A DNA stretch of 64,000 nucleotides, from positions 1 through 64,000 of the forward strand of contig DATLUO010000174.1 of the NCBI GenBank assembly GCA_035533075.1. Direction: 5' to 3'. Source of the DNA: Pirellulales bacterium (GTDB lineage Bacteria; Planctomycetota; Planctomycetia; Pirellulales; JAICIG01). Positions 141 through 60,490 of the stretch are shown here, piece after piece. Each line of letters begins with the position of its first letter. Position 1 is the first letter of the stretch. A program made the position numbers and the translations under genes. A model generated the notes under the pieces. The model made no database searches and was not told the origin of the DNA. It was given only the letters and a program-made list of their open reading frames with translations.

Positions 141-164
141 AACAGCCGCGACGGCTTTTGCATT

Positions 165-1205
165 TTGGTACACAACGAAAGCGCGGAGGATCCACGTTAC
201 AAGCCGGGTGCCGAGCCAGCGCCGCCGCAAATCTATGGCCCGCCCGCGCCCGGAGGCGGAGGCGCGTCCCCCGCCGACGAAGCGTTTCGACTTCAACAAG
301 AGCAAGAGCAGGCGCAGCAGAAGGAGCTCGACCAACAGAAAGCCGCGGTTCTGGGGGAGCTCGATCAAATGTGGGGGATCATGGTGCGATCCTATACGGG
401 CCCGTTCGATCCCGCCCTCGATTATGCCGCTCAGCACCTTGACGTGGGCCGAATGCTGGAGCTTGAGAAGCAACTACCTAACCTTTTGAGCGACGAGGAA
501 CTGAAAGCCTACAACGAGAAGAAGGCGGGCTATATCGATGCGCTGAAGCGCGAAGCGGCATCTCGCCAGGCGACGAATAACGGCACGCAACTTGGCGTAC
601 CGGCCACGCCGTATCAAGGGACGTTCTGGGAGAACACCTTTAGGCCCGGCGGCTACATGGAGCAGGTCCTTCCGGCATTTGCGGGAGCGGGCGGCGCGGC
701 GCCGCGCGGGCTGGAACCGATGGTGCCTCCGACGGTGAACCCCGGGCCGCGATTGTCAACGCCGAAACCGCCGAGGGGCGGCGCCGGCCCGGGCCCAACG
801 GCCAAGGGCGCACCAGCGCGCCCCAGTTGGCGGGAGTCTGAGGTCGACGCAGGCAAGGGTCTGAATAAAGACTACAAACCTCAAAAATCATTCAAGGACG
901 GGGAAGAGGTGCCCTACGGCACGAAAGGTAGCTCCCGGCCTGAGTACTTTAAACCTGGAGCGAGTTTGGAAGTAAAGAATTATGATGTAACGACCGCCCA
1001 GGGGAGGCGAAACGTCGCCAACAACGTGAGTGAACAGGCAATCGAGCGGAGTAAGAATTTGCCCGCCGGGACACGGCAAACTGTTCTTATCGACGTGCGG
1101 GGTCAGAAGGTCAGCAAGAAAACGCTGGATCAGCTTGCGGAGGATATAGTGGTAAAGTCTGGTGGCACGCTGACGCGCGGTGATATAAAGTTCAGAACGA
1201 GATAG
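165..1205 (+). CDS. Orphan polymorphic-toxin tip with restriction-endonuclease-like C terminus
   Basis: The frame opens just after 119 and reads RDGFCILVHNESA from 147, almost the same as the end of the HINT domain in the large gene (RDGFCILVHNQSA). The first possible start is a TTG at 165, so this is more likely a displaced tip than an independently started gene. A Pro/Gly/Gln-rich linker (about residues 15-220) follows. The C-terminal 120 residues carry VPYGTKGSSRPEYF, LEVKNY (an ExK nuclease motif near residue 268) and TRQTVLIDVRGQ. I recognise this pattern from REase-fold toxin tips of contact-dependent and HINT-processed toxins. It would be a nuclease after release by the HINT protease of a full-length carrier. 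A likely immunity gene starts 8 bases downstream. The nuclease assignment is by motif, not by search. Confidence 0.6.
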   Translation: MVHNESAEDPRYKPGAEPAPPQIYGPPAPGGGGASPADEAFRLQQEQEQAQQKELDQQKAAVLGELDQMWGIMVRSYTGPFDPALDYAAQHLDVGRMLELEKQLPNLLSDEELKAYNEKKAGYIDALKREAASRQATNNGTQLGVPATPYQGTFWENTFRPGGYMEQVLPAFAGAGGAAPRGLEPMVPPTVNPGPRLSTPKPPRGGAGPGPTAKGAPARPSWRESEVDAGKGLNKDYKPQKSFKDGEEVPYGTKGSSRPEYFKPGASLEVKNYDVTTAQGRRNVANNVSEQAIERSKNLPAGTRQTVLIDVRGQKVSKKTLDQLAEDIVVKSGGTLTRGDIKFRTR

Positions 1206-1213
1206 GTGATAGA

Positions 1214-1630
1214 ATGACGATCGCCATTCGATCCGCGGGAGAGATTAAGGAGCTTGGTGGAAGTGATTTCGTACATTCTTTTTTCTCTACCATCAGTTAT
1301 CATTTAGAGCCCGATGGGTGGGGGACAAGATATCCAGTTCTCATGAACGCACTATATCAGGGACAACTCAGCGCTGAGGATGCCGGCGCAGCCCTAGAAG
1401 AGCTTGCGGACGTTCAAATGCGTCTCAATCAGTTCCCTCCCTCGGACGTCGTCTGGGATATAGACGACTTAGCCGCTACCCCCCCTTGGGGAAGAAATAT
1501 CAGCAGCGACATTACTAGCTTAGGTAACTACTTCGTCACAAGTTCTGGATCCGACCTTATAGACGTGCTTAGAGAGTCGATCAGCCGACTAAGGTCTAGC
1601 GGTGGTATCGCGAGGCTAGAATCCTTTTGA
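1214..1630 (+). CDS. Imm70-like immunity protein
   Basis: A 138-residue soluble protein starting eight bases after the toxin-tip stop. Its sequence (GSDFVHSFFSTISYHLEP, WGTRYPVLMNALYQG, DVVWDIDDLA, PPWGRNISSDITSL, NYFVTSSG) matches my recollection of the Imm70 family, which is found next to polymorphic toxin tips. It presumably binds and neutralises the adjacent REase-like tip in the cytoplasm. The gene is visibly more AT-rich than its surroundings, with T-rich runs near 1275, which fits horizontal acquisition as a toxin-immunity pair. There is no signal peptide or membrane segment. The family call is from memory of conserved motifs. Confidence 0.65.
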   Translation: MTIAIRSAGEIKELGGSDFVHSFFSTISYHLEPDGWGTRYPVLMNALYQGQLSAEDAGAALEELADVQMRLNQFPPSDVVWDIDDLAATPPWGRNISSDITSLGNYFVTSSGSDLIDVLRESISRLRSSGGIARLESF

Positions 1631-1674
1631 TAGATGAGAAAAGGGGCCGCAGCTGGATTCCATGAGGCGCCCAC

Positions 1675-1810
1675 GGGGGCCAGTAGCGTCGGGACGAGCT
1701 CGCGGCGCATCGTGATCTTTGGCAACCTACATTCAGCCAACCAGCCGTTTGGGATTTGATCGGCTGCGTCGGCACCGGTCGCGAACAACGATCGGCGCCG
1801 ACGCGCCGGT
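1675..1810 (+). repeat. Cassette-boundary element R1
   Basis: This is the first of three related elements. It shares the blocks GGGCCAGTAGCGTCG, GCGGCGCATCGTGATCTTTG, CAGCCAACCAG, CGGCTGCGTCGGCACC and CGGCGCCGACGCGCCGG with R2 and R3. It sits exactly between the Imm70-like gene and the repeat ORF of the large toxin. The first candidate start of the large toxin ORF (TTG at 1719) lies inside the element. R1 lacks the AAAACGGGTC..ACGATTTGTT block seen in R2 and R3. Confidence 0.7.
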
Positions 1811-4800
1811 CGAGACCGACAAAAGCCGGAAGAGTAGCAACGAGATCACCGACAGCACCAGCGCCACCGAAACCAACCAGACCTTCACGGCCGTCAGCAG
1901 CGGCACCACGCTCGGCACCGACACGACGCAGCGGAGCGGCAACTCGGTGCTGGGCACGTATTCGCTGACCGAGACGAACTCGACCACGACGAGCACCGCG
2001 CAGACGGACACCAACCAGACCGACACCAGCAACAGCACCGCCAGCGAGTTCGACAGCGGCACGACCACGGAAATCGGCGACGAAATCTACGGCAGCCTGA
2101 ACAGCGTCGAGACGGGCGCGGCGGCGGCGACGCTCGTCAGCATCGACTACAACCAGAGCCAGACGATCAGCATCTCGCAGATCGACGACGGCACGACCAG
2201 CACGACCGTGCTGGGCAACAGCATCAGCCAGGGCAGCAGCGGCACGAGCTACGACACGGACACCACCAGCGTGTTTCCGGGGGAAGAGAACCTGGGGAAC
2301 CTGGTGGGTCCGCCCGTGTTGGCCGTCACGGCCACGGAAACCGACACTTCGACCGACAGCACCACCTTTTCGGCCAACGACGTCACGGGCTTGTCGTTTA
2401 CCAGCACGCACGAGGTCGACACCGTCAATCGCCCCGAGACGATCTCGCACGTCTCGTCGGAGAGCAACGGCGGCAAGTATTCCTGGACCACGATCGACAG
2501 CTACGAGAGCACGAACGCGATCACCGGCGGCTTCAGCCTGAACGAAACGAGCAGCGGCTCGCTCTCCAACTACGAGACCGACACGAACTCCGGCCTGGCG
2601 AACAGCAACACCGAGACCGGCACGACCAGCGGTTACACGGCGGAGACCGGCAGCCAGATCTTGGGCAGCTTCACGCTCTCGGAGACCAGCGACACTACCA
2701 CCACCGTCGTCGAAACCGACTCCGTCGGCGCGATCACGACCAGCGCCACGACCACGGCCTACGATTACACGAGCGCCAGCGCCGCCGGCAACGACGTGAC
2801 GGGGGCCGAGAGCACGGCCGAGCAGGGCCTTTCCAGCGCCACGCTGGCCAAGACCGACAATTACGGCTCGGGCGACACCGACAACGTGACGATCGCCACC
2901 AACGGCTCCAGCTCGTCCATCGGCAGCGACAACACGATCACGGGCAGCTTCACGCTCTCCGATTCGAGCGACACGACGGTCACCACCGCCGACAGCGGCA
3001 CGCGGGCCGGCAACAGTTACAGCGCCTATTCCAGCGATGTGACGACGGCCAGCGGAACGGAGATCGGCGATTCCATCACCGGCGCGGTGGCGACGGGCGA
3101 AACGACGACCGAGAGCGACAGCCTGACCGACGGCGGCACGAACAGCACCGGCAATTACACGATCGTCGAGACCGACAACTCGACGACCACGGTGACGGGC
3201 ACGGAGAACACGATCACCGGCGACTCGTCCACGACGACCACCGCCAACGACCTGACCAGCGTGACGAAGACGAGCGAGCATCTGTCGGGCACGATGCTGC
3301 AGGTGTCGAGCGACGTGACCAGCCTCAGCAGCAGCGGCAACGAGACGGCCAACACGATCACGGGCGCCTACGTCAGCACGGCCTACGAGTTGGAGACGAG
3401 CTCGCTCACCGAGAGCGGCCTGAATTCCGGCGGCAGTTTTTCGCTCACCTCCACGACCCGTTCCTCGCCGACGATCACGGAGAGCGGCAACACGTTGTCG
3501 GGCGACTACACCTTCAGCGAGGCCCAGACGCAGGGCTACACCTTCAACGAGAGCGACGCCAGCGCCTCGGGCGGCACGACGACCAGTTTCCAGATCACCG
3601 AAACCGGCGGCAAGCACGACGTGCTGACGCAGACCGGCAGCCACGTGACGGGCGGGTACACCTTGGCCGACCCCGGCACCGACAGTTACACGATCGCCGA
3701 GACCGGCGGCACCAGCGGCGGTGGTGGTGGCGGCGGCAGCATGAGCGGCAGCGGCTCCAGCTCCAGTTCCTCTTCTTGGGGCCTGACGCTGACGGGCGTC
3801 GACAACTACACGACGACCGAATCGGGCAACGAGTTGAGCGGGGCGTTCAATCGAACGACCAGCGGCGGCGGCAGCGACACTTTGAGCGAGAGCGGTTTGG
3901 GCAGCTACAACCCGCACCCCACCACCGGCTACACGCTTTCGGAAAGCGGCAATTACCTTTCGGGCCAGCTTTCGCTGACCGAGACGGGCACCGACCGTTA
4001 CTCGTTGATCGAGGCTTTCAACAACGCCTCGAACGCGGCGCTTGCCAACGGCAACGGCCCCGGCGACCTGGATTTTTCGCCCGTCGGCGCCCCGATCGTC
4101 GTGGGCGGGGTGTCTTACTGGGGCACCGGCCCCGCCGCCAACCTCGACGCCAACGCGGCCGACTCGGCCTTCAACGAGCTTGGGCTGCAATTGCTGCACG
4201 AATACTGCTGGGCGGGCGATCAGGCGACCATGGCGAACTTCGAGGACGATCGCCGAATCGACTCCTCGCGCCGGGGCCAGTCGGTTTTGACGGCCAGCGA
4301 GCACGATCCCGAAGGGCCGCGCTACTTGGGCGAGGTCGGGGAGTTCTTCGAAAACGGGCGGAAGCACGTCGTCAACCTCTACGTCGAAGGGCGGCTCTTC
4401 CGGCCCACGCCGAACCACGGGATTTACGTCCGCCAGCGCGGCTTTGTTCCGGCGGGCGAATTGAAACCGGGCGATCAACTGCTGACGAGCGACCACCGCT
4501 GGGTGAAGGTTTCGAACATCGTCGACAAAGGCGAGGTCGTCCCAGTGTTCAACCTGATGGTCCCCAACGGCCACACCTATTTCGTCGGCAGCAACAACCG
4601 CGACGGCTTTTGCATCCTCGTGCATAACCAGAGTGCGCCCGCGGTCCGCTCAGCGCCTGCCTATCGCCCTGCGCCCGCGCAGCCCCCTGCGCAACCAGGA
4701 CGGCAAGCGCCACGGCCGGGGCAATCGCGCCCGGGCCAAGGTGCGTCACCCGGCGCCGGCACCGGCGCCGTACCGCCCGGCGGGGTGAACACGATTTCGG

Positions 4801-5672
4801 TTCCTCGGCGCGACATGCACAAGTACGAAGGCGCGCAACCGATGGGTTTTCCATCATGGGAAGCATGGCAAGAAGCCAGGAACGCATACGTTGCAGATCG
4901 CGCCAAATATGGCCAATCGCTCAACCACGAGCCGACTGGGGGTGAAGTGCTCGGATGGATGGCCGGTCAGATCCGCAACCGAACGAACTCTCAGGAGCGC
5001 CTTGACAAGGCGAAAGAGTTCGCGCGCGCCAGCGGCATGTCGGAGGCTCAGATCGATGACGTCCTCAGTGGGCCCCATGTTTCGGTGCCCGGACAAGAAC
5101 CGGATCCGGTAAACGAATTGCTGAATGCGGCCAGGCGCAAGGCGGCGGAGCAGGAGGCGGCGAAGGCAAAATCCGGGGATCCGGGGGCCACGGCAGCAAA
5201 GAATCCCGCATTGGGCGGCGCTCCGTCGCGCGCGCAAATGCTTACCGCGGGAGGCAAGAAACCGCCCACGGGTGGAGGCAGCGCTGTGGCGACGGGAGGA
5301 ATGGACCCAGGGGACGAAGGCGAGAATGCGCCGCGCCCGAACATCAAGACAAATCTTCCCGATCGTGTTACAAAGGAGCTTCCGGAAGGTGAGACGCGGA
5401 CGCCGGAGGAGAATTCCAAAGCGCGGAACTTTTTTGAGCGTAACCGCGACGCCGCGAGGAAGTGGTGGTCGGACCGGAACGGCGGACGAGAGTGGCCTGA
5501 AGATTCGACGCACGACTCGCATCCTCGCGCCCTTAAGGATGGAGGCGACCCTCTTTTTGTTGAACCTGGTTATGGCGGTCCTAATAGCGATCATAGCATT
5601 CCGAGGCCCCCTGATGGCCAGACTGATGCGCAGCGTTGGGGTAAGCAGGGCGGTCGCCCGAGGAACGAATGA
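1719..5672 (+). CDS. HINT-domain polymorphic toxin with Ser/Thr-rich repeats and HNH-like tip
   Basis: 1317 codons. Residues about 30-825 are degenerate Ser/Thr/Asn/Asp-rich repeats of the type SGNxITGxYTLSET, broken by a Gly-rich patch near residue 670. A HINT (intein-like) domain follows: start Cys near residue 830 (YCWAGDQA), TPNHGIYV, AGELKPGDQLLT, HTYFVGS and final VHN near residue 968. In related systems such domains cut after VHN to release the tip. The tip has a Pro-rich linker, an alpha-helical part (SWEAWQEARNAYVAD) and a C-terminal module with RKWWSDRNGGREWP, THDSHPRALKDGGDPLF and GQTDAQRWGKQGG, resembling HNH-type nuclease tips. The nominal TTG start lies inside element R1 and no signal peptide is visible, so the true start or export signal is uncertain. 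A SUKH immunity gene follows immediately. Confidence 0.75.
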   Translation: MATYIQPTSRLGFDRLRRHRSRTTIGADAPVETDKSRKSSNEITDSTSATETNQTFTAVSSGTTLGTDTTQRSGNSVLGTYSLTETNSTTTSTAQTDTNQTDTSNSTASEFDSGTTTEIGDEIYGSLNSVETGAAAATLVSIDYNQSQTISISQIDDGTTSTTVLGNSISQGSSGTSYDTDTTSVFPGEENLGNLVGPPVLAVTATETDTSTDSTTFSANDVTGLSFTSTHEVDTVNRPETISHVSSESNGGKYSWTTIDSYESTNAITGGFSLNETSSGSLSNYETDTNSGLANSNTETGTTSGYTAETGSQILGSFTLSETSDTTTTVVETDSVGAITTSATTTAYDYTSASAAGNDVTGAESTAEQGLSSATLAKTDNYGSGDTDNVTIATNGSSSSIGSDNTITGSFTLSDSSDTTVTTADSGTRAGNSYSAYSSDVTTASGTEIGDSITGAVATGETTTESDSLTDGGTNSTGNYTIVETDNSTTTVTGTENTITGDSSTTTTANDLTSVTKTSEHLSGTMLQVSSDVTSLSSSGNETANTITGAYVSTAYELETSSLTESGLNSGGSFSLTSTTRSSPTITESGNTLSGDYTFSEAQTQGYTFNESDASASGGTTTSFQITETGGKHDVLTQTGSHVTGGYTLADPGTDSYTIAETGGTSGGGGGGGSMSGSGSSSSSSSWGLTLTGVDNYTTTESGNELSGAFNRTTSGGGSDTLSESGLGSYNPHPTTGYTLSESGNYLSGQLSLTETGTDRYSLIEAFNNASNAALANGNGPGDLDFSPVGAPIVVGGVSYWGTGPAANLDANAADSAFNELGLQLLHEYCWAGDQATMANFEDDRRIDSSRRGQSVLTASEHDPEGPRYLGEVGEFFENGRKHVVNLYVEGRLFRPTPNHGIYVRQRGFVPAGELKPGDQLLTSDHRWVKVSNIVDKGEVVPVFNLMVPNGHTYFVGSNNRDGFCILVHNQSAPAVRSAPAYRPAPAQPPAQPGRQAPRPGQSRPGQGASPGAGTGAVPPGGVNTISVPRRDMHKYEGAQPMGFPSWEAWQEARNAYVADRAKYGQSLNHEPTGGEVLGWMAGQIRNRTNSQERLDKAKEFARASGMSEAQIDDVLSGPHVSVPGQEPDPVNELLNAARRKAAEQEAAKAKSGDPGATAAKNPALGGAPSRAQMLTAGGKKPPTGGGSAVATGGMDPGDEGENAPRPNIKTNLPDRVTKELPEGETRTPEENSKARNFFERNRDAARKWWSDRNGGREWPEDSTHDSHPRALKDGGDPLFVEPGYGGPNSDHSIPRPPDGQTDAQRWGKQGGRPRNE

Positions 5673-5680
5673 GGTGGAAT

Positions 5681-6493
5681 ATGTTCGAGTGGCTTGACGA
5701 GGAATTGCGGGCGGTTAGGACGCCCCACTTTCATGAGGTTGATGGTCCCGCGCCCCGTGAACTTCGGCGCGCAGTTAAGGAGTCGGACAGACCTTTGCCG
5801 CCATCCTATAAGGAATTTGTGATTCGGTTCGGAAACGCGCGCCTATACCGCTGTTCAAATTGGTATAAGATCGAGATTTATGCGTCACCTCGCGATGCAA
5901 CAAGTGAAAGCGCGGAGACTTTGACGAATTTCGGTCGGATACCAGGCGCGTTGGCGTATTTCAAGGATGACTTGTTGGTTGAGGGCACCGAGTCCGCGGT
6001 ATTCGAATGGCACGGTCCAGAATTTGGGTTTAGGCAAGCGGCTAATGGGTTTGAGCAGTGGTTGGAGAAAAAACACCGCGCCGCTCGACGATCGTTTTCA
6101 AAGAGCAAATGGCAATCAATCCTAGCAGGGCCGGCGCCATTTTCAAAAGAGGAAAAGGCAGTTGTTGAGGCGCGCAGGCATTTTCACTGGCGCGTCATCG
6201 GTATCGCTGAGAATGGCGACCTCCAATTCGAGGTGAAGAATCGCTCAAATATGGCATTGCCGTACCTCACGATTGGTATTCGGCGCAAGGGGGGAGAACC
6301 GTTTGGCGGTGTGAAGCTACCTGTGTCAGGAATTCAGCCCGGCTCAGGCGCGGTTGTGGAGGTTGACTGCTACAAGCAGTCGCATGCCCCAGAGGACGTC
6401 GAACCGTTCGAGAAGCCTGACCCGGAGCCGGCGCTACGTGACCTATATTGGGAATTCAAGCAAATGCCGCGCACGGAAAACAGCTCAGAGTGA
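5681..6493 (+). CDS. SUKH-family (SMI1/KNR4-like) immunity protein
   Basis: The N-terminal 140 residues fit the SMI1/KNR4 (SUKH) fold: LRRAVKESDRPLPPSYKEFV, IRFGNARLYR and later an ELxxFE-like segment around FEQWLEKK. SUKH proteins are the commonest immunity partners of nuclease toxin tips. The last 100 residues form an extra beta-rich region (LQFEVKNRSNMALPYLTIGI). I chose ATG 5681 because GAGGTGG lies six bases before it; an upstream ATG at 5669 overlaps the toxin stop as ATGA. Either start gives translational coupling with the toxin. The gene is more AT-rich than the repeat ORFs, like the other immunity gene. Confidence 0.75.
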   Translation: MFEWLDEELRAVRTPHFHEVDGPAPRELRRAVKESDRPLPPSYKEFVIRFGNARLYRCSNWYKIEIYASPRDATSESAETLTNFGRIPGALAYFKDDLLVEGTESAVFEWHGPEFGFRQAANGFEQWLEKKHRAARRSFSKSKWQSILAGPAPFSKEEKAVVEARRHFHWRVIGIAENGDLQFEVKNRSNMALPYLTIGIRRKGGEPFGGVKLPVSGIQPGSGAVVEVDCYKQSHAPEDVEPFEKPDPEPALRDLYWEFKQMPRTENSSE

Positions 6494-6570
6494 TTGTTTG
6501 AGGGGCGGGCGTTTGGCCGGGGGCAGCAAACGCGCACGGTCCAATTTGCGAATCTACAGAGGCAGCCATG

Positions 6571-6760
6571 AGGGGCCAGTAGCGTCGTGGGAGCGGAAAA
6601 CGGGTCAAAACGATTTGTTTCGAGCGGGGCCAGTAGCGCCGCGAGGAGGCTCGCGCCGCGTCGTGTTCTTTGGCAATCCATTCATCAGCCAACCAGTCGT
6701 GAATTGACCGACCGGCTGCGTCGGCACCCGCCGCTCATCGCGGTCGGCACCGACGCGCCG
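6571..6760 (+). repeat. Cassette-boundary element R2
   Basis: The longest copy of the boundary element. It has two tandem GGGGCCAGTAGCG blocks around AAAACGGGTCAAAACGATTT, then TTCTTTGGCAATCCATTCAT, CAGCCAACCAGTCGTGAATT and a stem-loop whose arms are about GGCTGCGTCGGCACC (6714-6728) and GGTCGGCACCGACGCGCC (6742-6759). It lies after the SUKH gene and before the next repeat ORF. The plus frame reads VVFFGNPFISQPVVN and stops; the minus frame reads MADEWIAKEH. Differences from R3 do not favour synonymous positions in either frame, so I treat it as non-coding. Confidence 0.75.
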
Positions 6761-6767
6761 GCCGGCC

Positions 6768-9155
6768 GTGCGCCTGCGTGTTTCGCGCTCCTTCGCATTC
6801 TTCGTGCTCTCGGAAAACGACAGCACCAGCGTGTCGTCGATCGAGAGCGACGTGAACCAGACCGACACCACCAGCGTGGCCAGCAACGGCAGCCAGTACA
6901 TGACGGCCACCGAGACGGGCAACGAAATCACCGGCGACTACAGCCGCGGCGAACAAAACAGCGGCACGCTCACGCTGTTGACCAACGAGACCAACCAGAC
7001 CCTGTCGGTCTCGGCCAGCGAGGTCGATGTCAGCAGCGACAACCCCTCGACGAGCGGCAACTCGCTGTACGGCGATTACACGCTCAGCGAGAACAGCGGC
7101 GACTATAGCTCGGCCAACGAGGTCGACAACAACAGCTTCGGCGGAGGAAGCGACGTCAGCAGCCAGACCGCGCTCGACCAGAGCAACTCCAGCACCAGCG
7201 AAGCCGGCAACGAAAACTGGGGCGCCTATAACCGCAGCGTGACCAGCAGCGAACAATCGACCACCTACCTGCTCGAAGGCAACCAGACCGACACCACCAA
7301 CAGCACGGCTTCGCAGAGCTCCACCGACAACCAGACGCAAAGCGGCAACTCGATCGTGGGCGACTATACGCTCAACGAGTCGGGGACCGACGACGGCACG
7401 ACCTATGGAACCGATACCAACCAGACCGACACCACCAACAGCACGGCTTTCGACGGCTCCAGCGATAGCCGGACGAAAACCGGCAACGAGATCTTGGGCA
7501 ACTATACGCTCAGCGATCGCGGCACCGACGGCGGAACGACCCACGAACTCGACGTCAATCAGACCGATTCCACCAGCTCGGTCGATTACCCCTCGACCAG
7601 CACCACCAGTTACGAAACCGGCAACGAAATCACCGGCGCGGACGACACGAGTCAAAGCGCCTCCGGCACCGACAGCTCCAGCGGTACGGAAACCAACCAG
7701 AGCCTGACGATCGTCACCAGCGCGTCGGCCATTTCCAGCGACGACAGCCAGACGAGCTCCAACGACATCACCGGGAGTTACACGCTGGCCGATACGAGCC
7801 AAAGCACGACCACGACGTCGGAAACCGACACGAATATCGCCGACTTGCCCGGCACCGCCGCCCCGGTCGACACCACCACCAGCCTCGACGTCTCGAAGAC
7901 CTCGACCACTTCCTACGAAACCGGCAACCAGATCGTGGCCAGCGCCTCGACCAGCGAAACCGACCAGAACACCGACAGCAGCACCAGCAGCGAGACCAAC
8001 CAGAGCCAGACCGTCCATCAGACCATCACCTCGAGCGAGACCGACACGAGCCAGAAGAGCTCCAACGAGATCACCGGCAGTTACACGCTGGCCGATTCGG
8101 GCCAAAGCACGAGCACCACCTGGGAAACCGACAGCAACCAGACCGACACGACCAGCTCGTTCGACTTCTCGACCGCCTCCACCACTTCCCAGGAAACCGG
8201 CAACACGGTCAGCGGCTTCAGCTCCGCCAGCGAAACCGACAACACCACCGACAGCACGAGCAGCGCGGAGACGAACCAGACGCTGACCCGATTGACGAGC
8301 GCCACGACGATCGGCAGCGACAGCAGCCAACAATCGACGAACGACGTCACCGGCAGCTTCACGCTGAGCGATTCGAGCCAAAGCACGACCAGCAGTTGGG
8401 AAACCGACGCCAATCAGACCGACACGAGCAGCAGCTTCGAATTCTCGACCGCCTCCACCACTTCCCAGGAAACCGGCAATCAGGTCACCGGGTTCAACTC
8501 CAGCGGCGAGACCGACAACAGCACCGACAGCACGAGCGGCGGCGAGACCAACCAGACGCTGGCCACGCTGAGCAGCGCCACGTCGCAGGAAACCGACTCC
8601 AGCCAAGAAAGCAGCAACGACATTACGGGCAGTTTCACCTTGGCCGAGTCGAGCGACACTTCGACGACGACCTGGGAAAGCGGTGCGAATACGCCGCTGG
8701 TGGGCGGAGTGCCCGACCCGGCCCTGGCCGACGCCACGAGCAGCAGCGAGTCTGCCAGCGAATCCACCACCACCAGCCAAAGCGGCAACGAGATCACCGG
8801 GCAGTACGTGACCAGCACCTCCAACTACACCACCGACAGCACGAGCGGCGGCGAAACGGACCAGACCGACGCCGTCACCACCACCGCCACGGCCAGCCTC
8901 AGCGAAACCGATCAGCAAAGCGGCAACTCGCTGGTGGGCAGCTATACGCTGAGCGGTTCCAGCGGCGGCACCACCTACACGCGGGAAACGGAGAGCAACC
9001 AGTCGCTGTCGAGCACCAGCAACGACACCACGACCACCTCGAACGCAAAACGGGTCAGAACGATTTGTTCGGAGGGTGCCAGTAGCGTCGTGAGGGGCTC
9101 GCGGCGCACCGTGTTCTTTGACAATCCATTCATCAGCCAAGCAGTCGTGAATTGA
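6768..9155 (+). CDS. Ser/Thr-rich repeat protein without a toxin tip
   Basis: 795 codons of near-pure repeats, with units of about 70 residues such as SSNDITGSYTLADSSQST, TTWETDSNQTDT and TASTTSQETGNTVSGFSS recurring several times between 7700 and 8700. The composition (Ser, Thr, Asp, Glu, Asn, Gln) matches the repeat half of the large toxin, but no HINT domain or tip follows: the frame runs into element R3 and ends there (VFFDNPFISQAVVN). The GTG start at 6768 gives RLRVSRSFAFFVLSEN and no convincing signal peptide. It could be a stalk segment of a former larger toxin, a decoy for recombination, or a remnant. I do not know its function. Confidence 0.5.
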   Translation: MRLRVSRSFAFFVLSENDSTSVSSIESDVNQTDTTSVASNGSQYMTATETGNEITGDYSRGEQNSGTLTLLTNETNQTLSVSASEVDVSSDNPSTSGNSLYGDYTLSENSGDYSSANEVDNNSFGGGSDVSSQTALDQSNSSTSEAGNENWGAYNRSVTSSEQSTTYLLEGNQTDTTNSTASQSSTDNQTQSGNSIVGDYTLNESGTDDGTTYGTDTNQTDTTNSTAFDGSSDSRTKTGNEILGNYTLSDRGTDGGTTHELDVNQTDSTSSVDYPSTSTTSYETGNEITGADDTSQSASGTDSSSGTETNQSLTIVTSASAISSDDSQTSSNDITGSYTLADTSQSTTTTSETDTNIADLPGTAAPVDTTTSLDVSKTSTTSYETGNQIVASASTSETDQNTDSSTSSETNQSQTVHQTITSSETDTSQKSSNEITGSYTLADSGQSTSTTWETDSNQTDTTSSFDFSTASTTSQETGNTVSGFSSASETDNTTDSTSSAETNQTLTRLTSATTIGSDSSQQSTNDVTGSFTLSDSSQSTTSSWETDANQTDTSSSFEFSTASTTSQETGNQVTGFNSSGETDNSTDSTSGGETNQTLATLSSATSQETDSSQESSNDITGSFTLAESSDTSTTTWESGANTPLVGGVPDPALADATSSSESASESTTTSQSGNEITGQYVTSTSNYTTDSTSGGETDQTDAVTTTATASLSETDQQSGNSLVGSYTLSGSSGGTTYTRETESNQSLSSTSNDTTTTSNAKRVRTICSEGASSVVRGSRRTVFFDNPFISQAVVN

Positions 9156-11539: not shown

Positions 11540-11788
11540 CAGGCGTCAGGCGTTCAGGGTTCAGGGTTCAGGGTTCAGGGATATTCGAATTGACCTTCGA
11601 CTGTTGCCTGTTGCCTATTGCCTGTTGGTGGGCCGGCGCTCGCAAGCTCGCTGGTCCCACCCTACGGCCTTCCTGAACCCTGAACCCCGAACCCTGAACC
11701 CTACGGCCTTCCTGAACCCTGAACCCCGAACCCTGAACCCTGAACCCTTTCACGTCGGCGCTCGCAAGCTCGCTGGTCCCACCCTACG
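11540..11788. repeat. Block of simple repeats and 40-bp GGTGGGCC elements
   Basis: The block has tandem GTTCAGG/GAACCCT heptamers in both orientations, plus a full 40-base copy (11627-11666) and a partial copy (11755-11788) of the element beginning GGTGGGCCGGCGCTCGCAAG. The same 40-base element recurs near 12555, 12663, 17595 and 17703. The block overlaps the 3' end of the membrane-protein gene on the minus strand. No separate gene is visible in 11456-11700. Confidence 0.75.
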
Positions 11789-12554: not shown

Positions 12555-12701
12555 CGTAGGGTGGGACCAGCGAGCTTGCGAGCGCCGGCCCACCATCGCT
12601 AGGCGTCAGGCATCAGGCATCAGGTTGTTAGTCCTGACGCCTGAAACCTGACGCCTCAAATCGGTGGGCCTGCGCTCGCAAGCTCGCTGGTCCCACCCTA
12701 C
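12555..12701. repeat. 147-bp palindromic MITE-like element, copy 1
   Basis: Outer arms of 39-40 bases (12555-12594 and 12663-12701) are reverse complements beginning CGTAGGGTGGGACCAGCGAG. Inner arms carry GGCGTCAGG / CCTGACGCC motifs. The whole unit is nearly identical to the reverse complement of 17595-17742. It lies between divergent genes (membrane protein and oxidoreductase). Confidence 0.85.
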
Positions 12702-17594: not shown

Positions 17595-17742
17595 CGTAGG
17601 GTGGGACCAGCGAGCTTGCGAGCGCCGGCCCACCGATTTGAGGCGTCAGGTTTCAGGCGTCAGGACAAAGAACCTGATGCCTGACGCCTGATGCCTGACG
17701 ATGGTGGGCCGGCGCTCGCAAGCTCGCTGGTCCCACCCTACG
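17595..17742. repeat. 147-bp palindromic MITE-like element, copy 2 (inverted)
   Basis: Same structure as 12555-12701 but in opposite orientation. Arms at 17595-17634 and 17703-17742 pair over 40 bases; the centre holds GGCGTCAGG and CCTGACGCC blocks. The right edge supplies the stop codon (TAG of CGTAGGG on the minus strand) of the phosphodiesterase-family gene. Confidence 0.85.
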
Positions 17743-46415: not shown

Positions 46416-46491
46416 GTGCTTACTCGCCGATCTTGGTTCATCGTTCCCTCGATTTCACTGCGCGCCTTACACTGTGCCTTGAGGAAATGGC

Positions 46492-46563
46492 AGGGGCGGC
46501 GGGAATCGAACTCGCAACCTCTGGTTTTGGAGACCAGCGCTCTGCCAGTTGAGCTACGCCCCT
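46492..46563 (-). tRNA. trnW: tRNA-Trp (CCA)
   Basis: 72 bases on the minus strand. The acceptor stem pairs AGGGGCG with CGCCCCT. The anticodon stem CTGGT/ACCAG encloses the loop CTCCAAA with anticodon CCA, and the T arm has GTTCGATTC. It lies between tuf and secE, its position in many bacterial operons. Confidence 0.95.
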
Positions 46564-46611
46564 ATTATTTCCTCGTAGCATAAGCGTCCTCGCTTGTCCC
46601 CGCCCTTGCCT

Positions 46612-46634
46612 GGACGGCCTAGGAAGGCCATCCT
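46612..46634. repeat. Solo arm of the GGAGGATGGCC element after tuf
   Basis: ACGGCCTAGGAAGGCCATCC lies seven bases after the tuf stop and matches an arm of the hairpin at 29630-29687. Confidence 0.6.
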
Positions 46635-46640
46635 CCTTAC

Positions 46641-47840
46641 TTACTCAAGGATCTTGGTCACCACGCCCGAACCGACCGTCTTACCACCCTCGCGGATGGC
46701 GAAACGCACGCCGTCGTCCATGGCGATCGGGCTGATGAGCTCGATCGAGAGCTTGGCGTTGTCGCCGGGCATGCACATTTCGACGTCGCCCGTCAGGTTG
46801 GCCGTGCCGGTCACGTCGGTCGTGCGGAAGTAGAACTGCGGACGGTAGCCGCTGAAGAACGGCGTGTGCCGTCCGCCTTCTTCCTTGGACAGCACGTACA
46901 CTTCGGCCTCGAACTTGGTGTGCGGCGTGATCGAGCCGGGCTTGGCCAGCACCTGGCCGCGCTCGATGTCGTCGCGCTTCAGACCGCGGAGCAAGCAGCC
47001 GACGTTGTCGCCCGCTTGTCCCGAATCGAGCGTCTTGTTGAACATTTCGACGCCGGTGACCGTGGTCTTGGCGGGTTTCTTGGAGAGGCCGACAATTTCA
47101 ATTTCTTCGCCGACCTTGACCATGCCGCGCTCGATACGGCCCGTGGCCACCGTGCCGCGGCCTTCGATCGAGAACACGTCTTCCACCGCCATCAAGAACG
47201 GCTTGTCGACCTCGCGCACCGGCTCGGGAATGTAGCTGTCGATGGCGTCGAGCAATTCCTGGATGCACTTGGTTTTTTCCGGATCCTTGGGGTTGTCGTA
47301 GGCCAGGCGACTGGCGCCGCGAATGATCGGAATCTCGTCGCCGGGAAAGCCGTAGTGCGTGAGCAGCTCGCGCAGCTCCAACTCGACCAGCTCCAGCAAC
47401 TCGGGGTCGTCGACCAGGTCGACCTTGTTGAGAAAGACCACCAACGCCGGCACGCCCACCTGGCGGGCCAACAGAATGTGCTCGCGGGTCTGGGGCATCG
47501 GGCCGTCGGCGGCCGACACGACCAGGATCGCCCCGTCCATTTGGGCGGCGCCGGTGATCATGTTCTTGATGAAGTCGGCGTGGCCTGGGCAGTCGATGTG
47601 GGCGTAGTGACGCTTGTCGCTCTCGTATTCGACGTGGCTGACGGCGATGGTCACCGTCTTGGTCTCGTCGCGCACCGTGCCGCCCTTGGCGATATCGGCG
47701 TAGGACTTGAAGCTCGCCAGGCCCTTGGCCGCCTGGACCGCCAGGATGGCGCCTGTGAGCGTGGTCTTGCCGTGGTCGATGTGACCGATCGTGCCGACGT
47801 TGACGTGGGGTTTTTTCCGTTCGAAAGTTGCCTTGGCCAT
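46641..47840 (-). CDS. tuf: Elongation factor Tu
   Basis: 399 residues. It delivers aminoacyl-tRNA to the ribosome with GTP. G1 [14 protein letters not shown]2 region [21 protein letters not shown]3 [13 protein letters not shown]4 [14 protein letters not shown] and domains II-III ([32 protein letters not shown]) are complete. It is preceded by four tRNA genes and followed by tRNA-Trp, the same arrangement as tufB in enterobacteria. Confidence 0.98.
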
Positions 47841-47888
47841 TCTGTCTCCCTGCGTTAAAGCAAGCGTTGAAAACTGTGATCAAAGAGA

Positions 47889-47960
<72 letters not shown>

Positions 47961-47961
47961 C

Positions 47962-48035
47962 TTGGCGATTTTGGATTTTGGATTCCAGGCAGTCGTTCAT
48001 TCGAACAATCCAAAATCGAAAATCCAAAATTGCCC
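47962..48035. repeat. GATTTTGGATT inverted repeat between tRNA genes
   Basis: GATTTTGGATTTTGGATTCC and AATCCAAAATCGAAAATCCA form a stem of about 18 pairs between tRNA-Thr(GGT) and tRNA-Gly. It is related to the hairpin at 44527-44597. Confidence 0.65.
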
Positions 48036-48073
48036 CCGCCGCCATCCATCTTTTTCTTCCTTTCTTATCCGAA

Positions 48074-48143
48074 GCGGGTGAAGGGAATCGAACCCTCGTC
48101 TTTAGCTTGGAAGGCTATTGCTCTACCATTGAGCTACACCCGC
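48074..48143 (-). tRNA. trnG: tRNA-Gly (TCC)
   Basis: About 70 bases on the minus strand. Acceptor GCGGGTG/CACCCGC; the anticodon loop CTTCCAA gives anticodon TCC; D arm GCTCAATGGTAGAGC and T arm GTTCGATTC are normal. Confidence 0.93.
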
Positions 48144-48147
48144 AAAT

Positions 48148-48228
48148 GGGGGGTACAGGATTCGAACCTGTGAAGGCAGTGCCATCAGATTTACAGTCTG
48201 ACCCCTTTGACCGCTCGGGAAACCCCCC
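48148..48228 (-). tRNA. trnY: tRNA-Tyr (GTA)
   Basis: 81 bases with a long variable arm (class II). Acceptor GGGGGGT/ACCCCCC; the anticodon loop CTGTAAA between CAGA and TCTG gives anticodon GTA. Confidence 0.93.
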
Positions 48229-48246
48229 GCCGCTCGACCGCGATGA

Positions 48247-48318
48247 GCTAGCGGAGGGACTTGAACCCACAACCTGCTGATTACAAATCAGCTGCTCTGC
48301 CGATTGAGCTACGCTAGC
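48247..48318 (-). tRNA. trnT: tRNA-Thr (TGT)
   Basis: 72 bases on the minus strand, first in the operon. Acceptor GCTAGCG/CGCTAGC; anticodon loop TTTGTAA gives anticodon TGT. Confidence 0.94.
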
Positions 48319-54493: not shown

Positions 54494-57400
54494 ATGAAAC
54501 GACACGCCCCTCGTTGCTTTCTGGCCGTCTGCCTGCTCGTTGGCACCGGCCTGCACGCCCTCGCGGCCGACCAATGGGTCGCCTACAGGAGCAAAGACGG
54601 CCCCGGCAAAGGAAAGAAAATCGTCCTGGTTTCCGGCGACGAAGAGTATCGCTCGGAGGAAGCGTTGCCCATGCTGGCCAAAATCCTCAGCCAGCGGCAC
54701 GGCTTCGACTGTACGGTCCACTTCGCCGTCGATCCGCAGACCGGCATCATCAACTCCAACAACCAGAACAACATTCCGGGCCTGGAGCAGCTCGACGACG
54801 CCGACCTGATGATCATCGCCACACGGTTCCGCGAGCTGCCCGACGATCAGATGAAACACATCGTCGATTTCATCAACGCCGGCAAACCGGTGATCGGCCT
54901 GCGCACCGCCACCCACGCCTTCAGCTACTCGAAGAAGAAAGACAGCCCCTACCTCGATTGGAGCTTTTCCAGCTCGAAGTGGCCGGGCGGGTTCGGGCGA
55001 CAGATTCTGGGCGACACCTGGATCAGCCATCACGGCCACCACGGCAAAGAGGCCACGCGAGGTATCATCAACGAGCGGCAGAAGGACGCTGTGGTGCTGC
55101 GCGGCGTGAGCGACGTGTTCGGCCAGACCGATGTCTACGGCGTCAAGAACCTCACGCCCGATGCCCAGGTCTTGCTCTATGGTCAGGTGGTGGCGGGCAT
55201 GAAGCCGAGCGACCCGCCCGTCGAAGGCGAAAAGAACAACCCCATGATGCCGCTGGCCTGGCTCAAGGCGTACACCGCCCCGTCGGGCAAAGCGGGCCAG
55301 GCGTTCTGCACGACGATGGGCGCCTCGATCGACTTTACCAGCGAGGGGCTGCGGCGGCTGATTGTCAACGCGGCGTATGATCTCACCGGGCTGGGCGACA
55401 AGATTCCGGAGAAGAATGACGTCGAGATCGTCGGCACGTTCGAGCCGTCTTTTTTTGGCTTCAAGAACACGGAATACTGGCAGCAGAAGGCCCTCAAGCC
55501 GGCCGATTTTGCCTTGGAAGCCGACGGCGGTGATCGGGCATCCGCGGCCGCCGGCCTCGATCTTAAGAAGGGCGACCATATTTCGATCATCGGCAACACG
55601 CTGGCCGAGCGGATGCAGCACGATGGATGGATGGAGACGCTCGTTCATGCCCGGTTCCCGGAACATCGGCTCACGTTCCGCAACCTGGCTTTTTCGGCCG
55701 ACGAACTGACCATTCGCCAGCGATCGGAAGGGTTCGGCAGCCCCGATGAATGGCTCACCAAGACCAAGGCCGACGTGGTGTTCGCCTTCTTCGGGTTCAA
55801 CGAATCGTTCGCCGGCAAGCAGGGCCTGGAGAAGTTCAAGCAAGACCTGGACGGCTTCGTCAAGCACACGCTGGGGCAAAAGTACAACGGCCAGAGCGCG
55901 CCGAAGCTGGTGCTCTTTTCTCCCATCGCCCATGAAGACCTGCACGATCCAAACTTGCCCGACGGCAGCGAGAACAACGCTCGGCTGAAGATTTACACGC
56001 GGGCGATGGCCGAAGTGGCCAAGGCCAATGGCGTGGCGTTCGTCGATCTGTTTCAGCCGACGTTGGAAATCTACCGGGAGGCTGACGCCTCCCGCTCGCC
56101 GGCCTCGGCGAGCGGCACGCGTAAACGTGCCGGTAGGTCCCTTACCATGAACGGCATCCACCTGACGGAAGATGGCAACGCCGAACTGGCCGACGTGATC
56201 GTACAGGCGCTCTTTCCAGACCAGAAGCCGCAACTGAGCGATGAAGCGCTCACCAAGCTCCGCGAGGCCGTCAACGGCAAGAACTTCTATTGGTTCCATC
56301 GCTACCGCACGACCGACGGCTATTCGAGCTACGGCGGCCGATCGTATCTGAAATTCGTCAACGGCCAGACGAACCGCGAAGTGATGATGCGCGAATTGGA
56401 AGTGCTCGACGCGATGACCGAGAACCGCGATAAGCGCGTCTGGGAGATGGCACAAGGACGTGATCTCAAAGTCGACGACGGCAACACGCCACCCTTCATT
56501 CCGGTGGTCACGAACAAGCCCGGCCCCGGTCCCAACGGCGAGCACGTCTTTCTCGGCGGTGAAGAAGCCATCGGCAAGATGACGATCGGCAAGGGACTGA
56601 AGGTCAATCTGTTCGCCAGCGAGGAGACGTTTCCTGAAGTCATCAATCCCGTGCAGATGGCCTTCGACACCCACGGCCGGCTGTGGGTCGCCGCCTGGCC
56701 GAACTACCCGCACTGGAAGCCCAAGGAGGAGATGAACGACAAGCTGCTGATCCTGGAAGACACCGACGGCGACGGCAAGGCCGATAAATGCAAGACATTC
56801 GCCGATCATTTGCACAACCCGACCGGCTTCGAGTTCTGGGGCGGCGGTGTGTTGGTGGCGATGGCCCCCGACCTGCTGTTTCTCAAAGACACCGACGGCG
56901 ACGACCGGGCCGACGTGCGCTTGCGCGTGTTGCACGGACTCGACTCGGCCGACACGCACCACACGGCCAACAGCTTCGTGCTCGATCCGGGCGGAGGTCT
57001 CTACTTCCAGGAAGGCGTGTTCCATCGTACGCAGGTCGAAACGCCCTATGGCCCGCAGCGCAACACCGACGCCTGCGTTTGGCGGTTCGAGCCGCGCACG
57101 TTCAAGTTCGAGCGGTACGTGCCCTACGGCTTTGCCAATCCGCACGGCCACGTGTTCGATCGCTGGGGCCAGGACATCGTTCACGACGGCACCGGCGCCC
57201 AGCCCTATCACGGGGCGATTTTTTCGGGCTACGTCGAGTTCCCGCAAAAGCACCCGCATGCGCCGCAAGTATATAACCAGCGGACGCGGCCCTGCCCGGC
57301 CACCGAGATCCTGTCGAGCCGCCACTTTCCCGACGAGATGCAAGACAACCTGCTGGTGGGCAACGTGATCGGCTTTCAGGGCATCTTGCGCTACCGGCTT

Positions 57401-60400
57401 GAAAACAAGGGATCGAGCATCGCCGGCACCGAGTTGGAACCGTTTTTGTCGTCGAGCGACCCGAACTTTCGCCCGTCGGATTTTGAAATCGGCGCGGACG
57501 GCGCGCTCTATTTCACCGACTGGCAGAATCCGATCATCGGCCATATGCAGCACAACTTGCGGGATCCCAGCCGCGACCGCAAGCACGGCCGCGTCTATCG
57601 CGTGACCTACGAGGGCCGCAAGCTCAGCCCCTCGCCCAAGATCGCGGGCGAGCCGGTCGAAAAGTTGCTCGACCTGCTCAAGCAGCCAGAAAACCGCGTG
57701 CGTTACCGCGCTCGCATCGAGCTAAGCGGACGGCCGTCGGCAGACGTGCTGGCGGCGCTTAAGCCGTGGTTGCAACGACTCAGTCCGGCCGACAGCGGCT
57801 ACGAGCATCATCTGCTGGAGGCCCTGTGGCTGCACCAGCAACACAACGTGGTCAATGTCGATCTTCTCAAGCAGGTGCTCGCGGCGAAAGATGGCGATGC
57901 CCGTGCCGGGGCCACGCGCGTGCTTTGCTATTGGCGCGACCGCGTGCCGCAGGCCCTCAACGAGGTTAAGAAGCTGGCCGCCGACGAAGACCCGCGCGTG
58001 CGCTTGCAGGCGGTGCGGGCGGCGAGCTTCTTCCGCGTGCCCGAAGCGTTCGAGGTGGCGTTGGTCGCGCAGCAAGCCACGAGTGATCCGTACCTCGACT
58101 ATGCGCGCGACCAGACCATGAAGTCGCTCGAGCCGCTCTGGAAGCAGGCGCTGGCCGAGAAGCGCGAGATTCCGCTGACGACCGAAGCCGGCGCGAGCTT
58201 CTTGCTCAAGCACCTTTCGCTCGATCAGCTTCTGTCGAAAGAACGATCGCGGCCGGTCTACTACGAACTGCTGTTCCGGCCGGGCGCGCGCGACGAATAT
58301 CGCCGCGAGGCATTGGCCGGCCTGGCGAAGCTCGACAAGAAGAGCGAGCTCGACGTGCTGCTCGACGCCATCCATCGGATCGACAACAAAGAAGACGACC
58401 GCGATGAGAGCGTCGTGTTCGACCTGGTGCGGCTGCTGACCGCTCGCAACGCCGAGCAGCTCGCGGCCGTGCGCGGCCAGATCGAAAAGCTGGCCACGGC
58501 ATCGAAGCAGCCGATCATCCGCCAGGTGGCCTTCTCCGCGTTGATCGCCATCGACGGCTCGCCCGACAACGCCTGGAAGCTGGGCACGACGAGCCTGCCG
58601 GCGCTGTACGACCTGACGAGCGCGGTGCCGCTGGTCAGCGATCCCAGTTTAAGGGCACGTCTCTATCCGCTGGTCGAACCGCTGCTGCAAGGGCTGCCTG
58701 AGCCGCTGGCCCACGCCAAGCAGAGCACGGGCACGCTTGGCCGCTATGTACGGATCGAGCTGCCGCGTAAAGGGACGCTCACTTTGGCCGAAGTCGAGAT
58801 CTACAGCGGCGGCCGCAACGTCGCCCGGCATGGCAAGGCGACGCAAAAGAATACGGCCTACGGCGGCGACGCCGCGCGGGCCATCGACGGCAACACCAGC
58901 GGCCTGTTCGGCATGAACGGCCAGACGCACACGCAGGAGAACACGCCCGAACCGTGGTGGGAAGTCGATCTGGGCGAGACGTATCCCGTGGAGCGGATCG
59001 TGATCTACAACCGCGGCGACGGCGACCTGGGCAAGCGGCTCGAAGGGTTCACCTTGCGTGTGCTCGATTCGTCCAGGCACGAAGTGTTCAAACGTGGCGG
59101 CGTTGCCGCGCCGGACCGCAAAGTGCAGTTCGACCTGGAAGGTGGGGGCGGCGACACGCTGGTCCGCCGCGCCGCGATGAACGCGCTCACCTACGTTCGC
59201 GGCCAGGAGGCCAAGACGTTCGACACGCTGGCTGCCTTGGTACTTCATAGTGAGAAAGGCGCATCCGCCGACCTGCTGCCCGCCATCCGCGCCATGCAGC
59301 GCATCGGCCGCCAATACTGGAACAAGCAGCAAGTCAAGCCGCTGCTGGCTGCGGTCGTGCCCGCCGTCCGCGGCCTGCCGGTGGAAGACCGCACCAGCGA
59401 GTCGGCGCTCGATGAGCTCGAATTTGCCGACGCATTGGCATCGCTGCTGCCGATCGACGAAGCCCGCCGGATTCGCGGCGAGCTGCGCGAGTTGGGCGTG
59501 CGGGTGATCAAGCTCGGCACCTTGCCCGAACGCATGTCGTACGATCAGGACGTGATCGCCGTGGCGGCCGGCAAGCCGGTGCAGTTCCTGCTCGACAATC
59601 CGGACCTGATGCCGCACAACTTCGTGATCGTGCGGCCGGGTTCGCTGGAAGAAGTCGGCCTGCTGGGCGAATCGACGGCGCAGCAGCCCGGCGCGCTGGA
59701 GCGGCAGTACGTGCCGCCCTCGAACAAGATTCTCCTGGCCAGCCGGCTTTTGCAGCCCCGCGGCTCGCAACGTCTGACGTTCAATGCGCCGACCAAGCCC
59801 GGCGTCTATCCTTACGTTTGCACCTTTCCGGGCCACTGGCGGCGGATGTACGGCGCGCTGTATGTGGTCGACGATCTCGATCAGTATCTGGCCGGGCCGG
59901 AAGCCTATCTGGCGGCCCATCCGCTGGAAATCAAGGACGAGTTGCTGAAGGACCGGAGGCTGCGGACGGAATGGAAGTTCGACGAGTTGGCGGTGGCGGT
60001 CGAGGATCTTTCGTCGGGCCGTTCTTTCGGCGACGCCAAACAGATGTTTACCGTGGCGAGTTGCGTGGCCTGCCACAAGCTGAACGGCGTGGGGACGGAG
60101 ATCGGCCCCGACCTATCGAAGCTCGAAGCGAAGTATCAGCCGGTCGATATTCTCAAAGAGATTCTCGACCCCTCGGCCAAGATCAACGAGAAATTCCAGA
60201 CCTACACGTTCCAGCTCGATTCCGGTAAGACGGTCACCGGGCTGGTGCTGGAGGAGACGGCCGACGCGGTGAAGGTGATCGAGAACCCCTTGGCCAAGGC
60301 CGAGCCGGTGGTGCTGAAAAAATCGGAGATCGACCAGCGCGAGAAGGCGAAGACGTCGATCATGCCCAAGGGCCTGCTGGACAAGCTCACGCGCGACGAG

Positions 60401-60490
60401 GTTTTGGACCTGATCGCCTACATCGCCGCCCGCGGCGACAAGAGCAGCAACCTGTTCAAAGGCGGCGACGGGCACGAGCACCATCACTAA
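54494..60490 (+). CDS. Multidomain PVC-type protein: ThuA, SGNH, dehydrogenase, HEAT, discoidin, cupredoxin, cytochrome c
   Basis: 1998 residues from ATG 54494, with signal peptide APRCFLAVCLLVGTGLHALA. In order: ThuA-like domain (residues ~30-270, IVLVSGDEEYRSEEALPMLA); SGNH/GDSL hydrolase (~355-580, ISIIGNTLAERM and GIHLTEDGN); PVC-type membrane-bound dehydrogenase propeller (~700-1040, DTHGRLWVAAWPNYP); HEAT-like helices (~1060-1400); discoidin-like carbohydrate-binding domain (~1415-1545, GLFGMNGQTHTQENTPEPWW); cupredoxin (~1690-1795, MPHNFVIVRPG ... CTFPGHWRRM); cytochrome c heme site near residue 1857 (SCVACHKLNGVGTEIGPDLS) with distal Met possible. It probably oxidises sugars outside the cytoplasm and passes electrons to heme or copper. 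A 66-base cloverleaf repeat is inserted in frame in the SGNH domain. Confidence 0.85.
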   Translation: MKRHAPRCFLAVCLLVGTGLHALAADQWVAYRSKDGPGKGKKIVLVSGDEEYRSEEALPMLAKILSQRHGFDCTVHFAVDPQTGIINSNNQNNIPGLEQLDDADLMIIATRFRELPDDQMKHIVDFINAGKPVIGLRTATHAFSYSKKKDSPYLDWSFSSSKWPGGFGRQILGDTWISHHGHHGKEATRGIINERQKDAVVLRGVSDVFGQTDVYGVKNLTPDAQVLLYGQVVAGMKPSDPPVEGEKNNPMMPLAWLKAYTAPSGKAGQAFCTTMGASIDFTSEGLRRLIVNAAYDLTGLGDKIPEKNDVEIVGTFEPSFFGFKNTEYWQQKALKPADFALEADGGDRASAAAGLDLKKGDHISIIGNTLAERMQHDGWMETLVHARFPEHRLTFRNLAFSADELTIRQRSEGFGSPDEWLTKTKADVVFAFFGFNESFAGKQGLEKFKQDLDGFVKHTLGQKYNGQSAPKLVLFSPIAHEDLHDPNLPDGSENNARLKIYTRAMAEVAKANGVAFVDLFQPTLEIYREADASRSPASASGTRKRAGRSLTMNGIHLTEDGNAELADVIVQALFPDQKPQLSDEALTKLREAVNGKNFYWFHRYRTTDGYSSYGGRSYLKFVNGQTNREVMMRELEVLDAMTENRDKRVWEMAQGRDLKVDDGNTPPFIPVVTNKPGPGPNGEHVFLGGEEAIGKMTIGKGLKVNLFASEETFPEVINPVQMAFDTHGRLWVAAWPNYPHWKPKEEMNDKLLILEDTDGDGKADKCKTFADHLHNPTGFEFWGGGVLVAMAPDLLFLKDTDGDDRADVRLRVLHGLDSADTHHTANSFVLDPGGGLYFQEGVFHRTQVETPYGPQRNTDACVWRFEPRTFKFERYVPYGFANPHGHVFDRWGQDIVHDGTGAQPYHGAIFSGYVEFPQKHPHAPQVYNQRTRPCPATEILSSRHFPDEMQDNLLVGNVIGFQGILRYRLENKGSSIAGTELEPFLSSSDPNFRPSDFEIGADGALYFTDWQNPIIGHMQHNLRDPSRDRKHGRVYRVTYEGRKLSPSPKIAGEPVEKLLDLLKQPENRVRYRARIELSGRPSADVLAALKPWLQRLSPADSGYEHHLLEALWLHQQHNVVNVDLLKQVLAAKDGDARAGATRVLCYWRDRVPQALNEVKKLAADEDPRVRLQAVRAASFFRVPEAFEVALVAQQATSDPYLDYARDQTMKSLEPLWKQALAEKREIPLTTEAGASFLLKHLSLDQLLSKERSRPVYYELLFRPGARDEYRREALAGLAKLDKKSELDVLLDAIHRIDNKEDDRDESVVFDLVRLLTARNAEQLAAVRGQIEKLATASKQPIIRQVAFSALIAIDGSPDNAWKLGTTSLPALYDLTSAVPLVSDPSLRARLYPLVEPLLQGLPEPLAHAKQSTGTLGRYVRIELPRKGTLTLAEVEIYSGGRNVARHGKATQKNTAYGGDAARAIDGNTSGLFGMNGQTHTQENTPEPWWEVDLGETYPVERIVIYNRGDGDLGKRLEGFTLRVLDSSRHEVFKRGGVAAPDRKVQFDLEGGGGDTLVRRAAMNALTYVRGQEAKTFDTLAALVLHSEKGASADLLPAIRAMQRIGRQYWNKQQVKPLLAAVVPAVRGLPVEDRTSESALDELEFADALASLLPIDEARRIRGELRELGVRVIKLGTLPERMSYDQDVIAVAAGKPVQFLLDNPDLMPHNFVIVRPGSLEEVGLLGESTAQQPGALERQYVPPSNKILLASRLLQPRGSQRLTFNAPTKPGVYPYVCTFPGHWRRMYGALYVVDDLDQYLAGPEAYLAAHPLEIKDELLKDRRLRTEWKFDELAVAVEDLSSGRSFGDAKQMFTVASCVACHKLNGVGTEIGPDLSKLEAKYQPVDILKEILDPSAKINEKFQTYTFQLDSGKTVTGLVLEETADAVKVIENPLAKAEPVVLKKSEIDQREKAKTSIMPKGLLDKLTRDEVLDLIAYIAARGDKSSNLFKGGDGHEHHH
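56071..56136. repeat. Cloverleaf-shaped element inserted in frame
   Basis: Outer stem CTACC/GGTAG encloses three perfect hairpins in a row: GGGAGGC-TGAC-GCCTCCC (56076-56093), GCTCGCCG-GCCT-CGGCGAGC (56094-56113) and GGCACG-CGTAAA-CGTGCC (56114-56131). It codes for READASRSPASASGTRKRAG between the SGNH strand LEIY and the conserved NGIHLTEDG. It is not a tRNA: there is no D or T loop consensus and no anticodon loop of seven. Confidence 0.8.

Follow-up and report, generated by a model that had tools for sequence, protein, structure and literature searches.

The window analysed here is a 64,000-nt stretch of contig DATLUO010000174.1 from a Pirellulales bacterium (assembly GCA_035533075.1). It contains a long open reading frame with a likely start at 54494 and a stop at 60490, whose product is predicted to be a large exported planctomycete protein. 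Within its SGNH-like domain, the gene carries a compact cloverleaf-shaped palindrome that is in frame with the coding sequence. Two other regions of the window stand apart from this gene. Positions 1-9014 hold long coding repeats rich in Ser, Thr and Asp, spaced at about 138 and 276-303 nt, and probably encode a large surface or adhesin-like protein. A cluster of five tRNA genes occupies 46491-48318 on the - strand. The features of the host gene and of the palindrome are as follows.

54494..60490, + strand: host gene, a PVC-type haem-binding CxxCH protein with ThuA-like, SGNH/GDSL-like, DUF7133, HEAT and F5/8 C parts
55547..56230, + strand: SGNH-like domain segment, as modelled with AlphaFold2
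56071..56136, no strand assigned: whole element, an inverted tail-to-tail dimer of a 30-nt unit (cloverleaf, REPIN-like); from sequence, fold z and absence from 26/26 aligned orthologues
56071..56100, + strand: unit A, CTACC-GGGAGGC(TGAC)GCCTCCC-GCTCGCC; exact match to the genome-wide pattern
56076..56093, + strand: hairpin of unit A, 7-bp stem and TGAC loop; member of an exact 18-nt hairpin class (GGGAGGCTnACGCCTCCC) with 9 genome places
56094..56113, no strand assigned: middle hairpin, unit tails GCTCGCC / GGCGAGC paired around the spacer; from sequence and fold
56101..56106, no strand assigned: spacer GGCCTC separating the units; from sequence
56107..56136, - strand: unit B, CTACC-GGCACG(TTTACG)CGTGCC-GCTCGCC; exact match to the genome-wide pattern

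Read along the forward strand, the 66-mer consists of CTACC, the stem GGGAGGC/GCCTCCC around TGAC, the stem GCTCGCC/GGCGAGC around GGCCTC, the stem GGCACG/CGTGCC around CGTAAA, and GGTAG. All three stems are perfect, and CTACC and GGTAG form the closing pair. Compared with dinucleotide shuffles, the fold reaches z = -5.6 with DNA parameters and -6.8 with RNA parameters, and none of 200 shuffles folds as well. The predicted RNA fold amounts to -47 kcal/mol. An earlier note, made from the sequence alone, described three perfect hairpins joined in a four-way junction, and both sequence and fold scores bear this out, with the qualification that the closing stem is marginal as DNA (present in the centroid, absent from the minimum free energy structure) and part of the minimum free energy structure with RNA parameters. 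The same note took the 66-nt cloverleaf itself as the repeating element. This part did not hold: the 66-mer resolves into two inverted copies of a 30-nt hairpin-plus-tail unit, set tail to tail across a 6-nt spacer, so that the middle hairpin is made of their paired tails. A second complete cloverleaf was not seen. An Rfam scan of the window gave no match at the cloverleaf, its matches being the five tRNAs.

The unit was defined by searching the first hairpin of the cloverleaf against the genome, and pattern searches then provided the census. Its consensus is [C/T]TACC-GGnnnnC-TnAC-GnnnnCC-GCTCGCC. With up to two mismatches, the pattern occurs at 33 places in the 8.5-Mb genome, compared with 2 for the reversed control, which answers the call of the earlier note for further copies at the level of the 30-nt unit. 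Elsewhere in the order, 7 of 57 genomes also carry units (at most one mismatch; controls near zero), and the order-wide pattern search shows that their stems differ between lineages. Across five stem pairs left free by the pattern, 287 of 325 cells are paired, whereas shuffles reach a mean of 200 and a maximum of 217; the hairpin is therefore what is conserved. Further unit pairs occur at four places in the genome (C87, C119, C176 and C212), all head to head and about 50 nt apart. The tail-to-tail arrangement with a 6-nt spacer was seen once, at 56071-56136. The family displays several features by which REPs and REPINs are recognised, namely a dispersed multicopy short palindrome, compensatory stem change and inverted doublets. 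Its 5' foot reads CTACC on one strand and GGCGAGC on the other, and not the 5' GT[AG]G of REPs. As far as the literature covered goes, searches returned no description of this 30-nt family.

Comparison with related proteins defines the segment as an insertion. It is absent from all 26 aligned orthologues, 24 of which are shorter by exactly 16 aa and the remaining two by 13 and 6, so the empty sites that the earlier note had proposed to look for do exist. The loop between FVDLF and NGxHL measures 26 aa in 51 of 69 parsed relatives versus 42 aa in the host protein. Relative to the usual orthologue, the gene has hence grown by 48 nt (16 aa) and not by 66 nt. Since this gain is smaller than the element, either the target must have given up about 18 nt or the loop must have been shorter in the ancestor. 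The left end of the insert overlaps a conserved Tyr codon (TAC). The 66-mer is in frame and is read as (I)YREADASRSPASASGTRKRAGR, and four of its six frames are free of stops, including the one used. A length of 66 is, as the earlier note stressed, a multiple of three, but the net change at the site is 48 nt. With the insert missing from orthologues and the reading frame kept, the locus shows the pattern expected of an in-frame intragenic palindrome.

The insert corresponds to residues ~176-197 of the SGNH-like segment, between a helix and the NGIHL motif. In the AlphaFold2 model, which has a mean pLDDT of 85.7, the two blocks of the insert score 67 and 65 and form a helix end and coil. Usual SGNH hydrolases carry GDS and DxxH motifs. 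The domain at 55547-56230 shows GNT and NGIH instead, so that its catalytic residues seem to be changed throughout the family. In another Pirellulaceae genome (L155:2001-2702), the same loop holds an unrelated insert of equal length, which suggests that the loop is permissive. The possibility that it descends from the same insertion event and has since eroded was rejected, given that the length is equal while the similarity is no better than that of codon shuffles.

By coding score, most other units lie outside coding sequence. Exceptions include a unit pair within a 766-aa open reading frame (C119), which encodes READASRSP, a peptide identical to one at the 56071-56136 locus, and a copy within a membrane protein loop (C164). 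At the C164 site, comparison with a sister genome shows that the loop varies freely, and at the C119 site homologues do not span the position. The units at C10, C16, C18, C35, C205 and C260 lie within N-terminal regions. Near gene starts, single units at C260, C205 and C10 (L093, L090 and L011) are read as LPGGLRLPLA and lead into stretches that are hydrophobic or resemble signal peptides, so that the repeat looks as though it had contributed to a new N-terminus. The earlier note's suggestion that the element has evolved to be tolerated inside genes is not borne out by this distribution, in which most copies are extragenic or at gene starts. Nor can the in-frame copy serve as proof of evolved tolerance, since selection after insertion would leave frame compatibility anyway.

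Evidence on a candidate enzyme for the repeat comes from relatives. In a genome of the same order (G020), a 187-aa TnpA-Y1 gene, P0001, is bordered on each side by two tandem units whose heads face the gene. Within the order, 45 of 297 genomes have a homologue of P0001; G020 is the only one with an intact gene flanked by exactly the 30-nt unit type, the other homologues having the same foot on different repeats. P0001 matches PF01797 and, with a score under the cut-off, NF047646. In alignment A1, H101 and H103 are invariant, and Y163 and Q167 are nearly so. With an HUH motif, Q four residues past Tyr and a conserved N-terminus, P0001 and its relatives look class-3-like. All 256 tetramers were scanned as 3' hairpin feet near 30 P0001 homologues (60 flanks), with overlapping matches included in the raw counts. 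The commonest feet were GCTC (26 of 60 flanks) and CTCG (22). In 11 of the 30 loci, hairpins with a CTCG foot flank the gene on either side; they are about 30-fold denser near the homologues than further out, whereas at other Y1_Tnp loci, used as controls, they are absent and the foot is CTAC (GTAG). Hairpins with a GTAG/CTAC foot were absent near the 30 P0001 homologues in the same scan. In another, unit-rich genome (G042), a decayed class-3-like transposase fragment (L320:1500-1830, C109) adjoins a head-to-head unit pair and is possibly a relic of a source locus.

The genome of the bacterium itself contains 12 Y1_Tnp matches. The search for P0001 homologues gave none in this genome at E 1e-15, and a profile search returned one weak match with the tyrosine motif Y---N; by homology and profile searches, a class-3-like gene was not found. 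The RAYT-like transposase that the earlier note had suggested testing for was thus not found as a cognate in the genome itself and is present, flanked by units, in G020. The resident Y1_Tnp genes were considered as mobilisers and rejected, as the flanks read contained no unit and three of the genes have a different GTAG-type repeat nearby. A dispersed repeat of this kind, GTAGGGTGGGACCAGCGAGCTTGCGAGCGCCGGCCCACC, with a classical 5' GTAG and a palindrome, occurs in the window in several copies and both orientations (11627-11666, 11756-11788, 12555-12595, 17595-17634 and 17703-17731) and also near Y1_Tnp genes L057, L058 and L061 of the same genome. It looks like a resident GTAG REP.

Known systems place the family close to, and yet outside, described classes. 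Di Nocera et al. (2013; PMC3733652) described GTAG and CGTC REPs, known from Planctomycetes among others, together with inverted dimers and translated intragenic copies; these REPs are mostly extragenic, and some dimers lie in frame in genes and are translated into 20-30 aa. Our unit shares with them a dispersed palindrome of 20-40 nt, covarying stems, and occurrence as singles and inverted dimers. It differs in having neither GTAG nor CGTC 5' of the hairpin, but a CGAG foot (the GCTCGCC tail) and CTACC at the other end, and the dimer at 56071-56136 differs in being joined tail to tail across 6 nt, which gives three hairpins. REPIN/RAYT systems (Bertels and Rainey 2011, PMC3116915) offer a similar inverted doublet of short repeats, and also a RAYT-type gene bordered by its own repeats, which here is seen in the relative G020; in contrast to them, a cognate gene was not found in the same genome, the foot differs, and copies number a few dozen versus hundreds. 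Class 3 TnpA-Y1 proteins occur mainly in Planctomycetes, Acidobacteria and Proteobacteria, carry a Q in their tyrosine motif and have genes flanked by hairpins whose foot is CnGA (PMC6006769). P0001 and its relatives resemble them in phylum, HUH motif, conserved N-terminus and Q in the tyrosine motif (printed in that paper as Y- - - -Q, so that the spacing is not certain), and in being flanked by atypical hairpins that are also dispersed in the genome. The foot is mostly CGAG rather than the published CnGA, although some flanks with CCGAG or CTGAG would fit. Rickettsia palindromic elements (RPE) likewise lie in frame within protein genes, but the unit differs from them in sequence and phylum. 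RPE-4 and RPE-6 have been equated with CGTC REPs, a class of repeats without an associated transposase, and RPE-1 is longer (PMC3733652). The repeat accordingly does not count as a GTAG REP, nor in the strict sense as one of class 3; it is REP-like in its working, with a different foot. In-frame intragenic REPs are already known (PMC3733652), and frame-keeping REP insertions have been reported (PMC6006769); what is new is the family of repeats, the CGAG type of its foot and the link to a transposase.

Taken together, the cloverleaf is very probably a tail-to-tail inverted REP dimer, REPIN-like in form, that inserted in frame into an SGNH-like domain and belongs to a kind of family linked to the class-3-like TnpA-Y1 of the order. 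The earlier note's central idea of a mobile palindromic DNA element residing in frame within a gene is upheld by the genome copies, the orthologues without the segment and the RAYT-type association in a relative. Mechanistically, a class-3-like TnpA-Y1, a RAYT-type HUH single-strand nuclease, would recognise hairpins with a 5' CGAG(C) foot in single-stranded DNA (a foot that appears as 3' GCTCGCC on the opposite strand), cut them and rejoin them at a new site. The copy at 56071-56136 would then have been retained because its frame is free of stops, the site gained a length divisible by three, and the Arg/Ser/Ala-rich segment it encodes lies in a permissive surface coil, where it may well be neutral. 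The transposase would since have been lost from this genome.

Other explanations account for parts of these data. Spread of the dimer by a different agent, either a resident class 2 RAYT acting in trans or recombination or replication slippage, is improbable. It would accommodate the 12 Y1_Tnp matches and the failure to find a class-3-like gene in the genome, but those Y1_Tnp genes have no unit in the flanks read, three sit near the different GTAG-type repeat, and the foot at other Y1_Tnp loci is CTAC (GTAG), never CTCG. Still less probable is recruitment of the element, whereby the loop it encodes, or its structure as RNA or DNA, would function in the host gene, for example by slowing translation or stabilising the mRNA. 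The very stable RNA fold and the perfect stems kept by both units inside the gene agree with recruitment, but a young insertion would also have perfect stems, the peptide falls in low-confidence coil of the model, and the insert is present in no second genome, so conservation cannot be shown. Chance or codon-level palindromy in a GC-rich Arg/Ala/Ser linker, to which the GC-rich genome and the two reversed-control matches lend some background, is already refuted by the other copies and the empty orthologues, and it fits neither the shuffles, none of which folds as well, nor the match of both halves to a dispersed, covarying family.

Through a common hairpin foot, the in-frame dimer and its relatives connect an orphan family of palindromes with single-strand nucleases of a class that has received little study. 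They also raise the question of whether class-3-like TnpA proteins read CGAG where known TnpA-REP proteins read GTAG. A bolder and rather doubtful extension would be that class-3-like TnpA-Y1 of Planctomycetota drive a separate REP superfamily with CGAG instead of GTAG as guide, in which the three-hairpin dimer is a mobile form able to enter coding sequence and not a by-product. The locus at 56071-56136 also adds a clean, orthologue-backed case of a REP dimer that has become predicted protein sequence.
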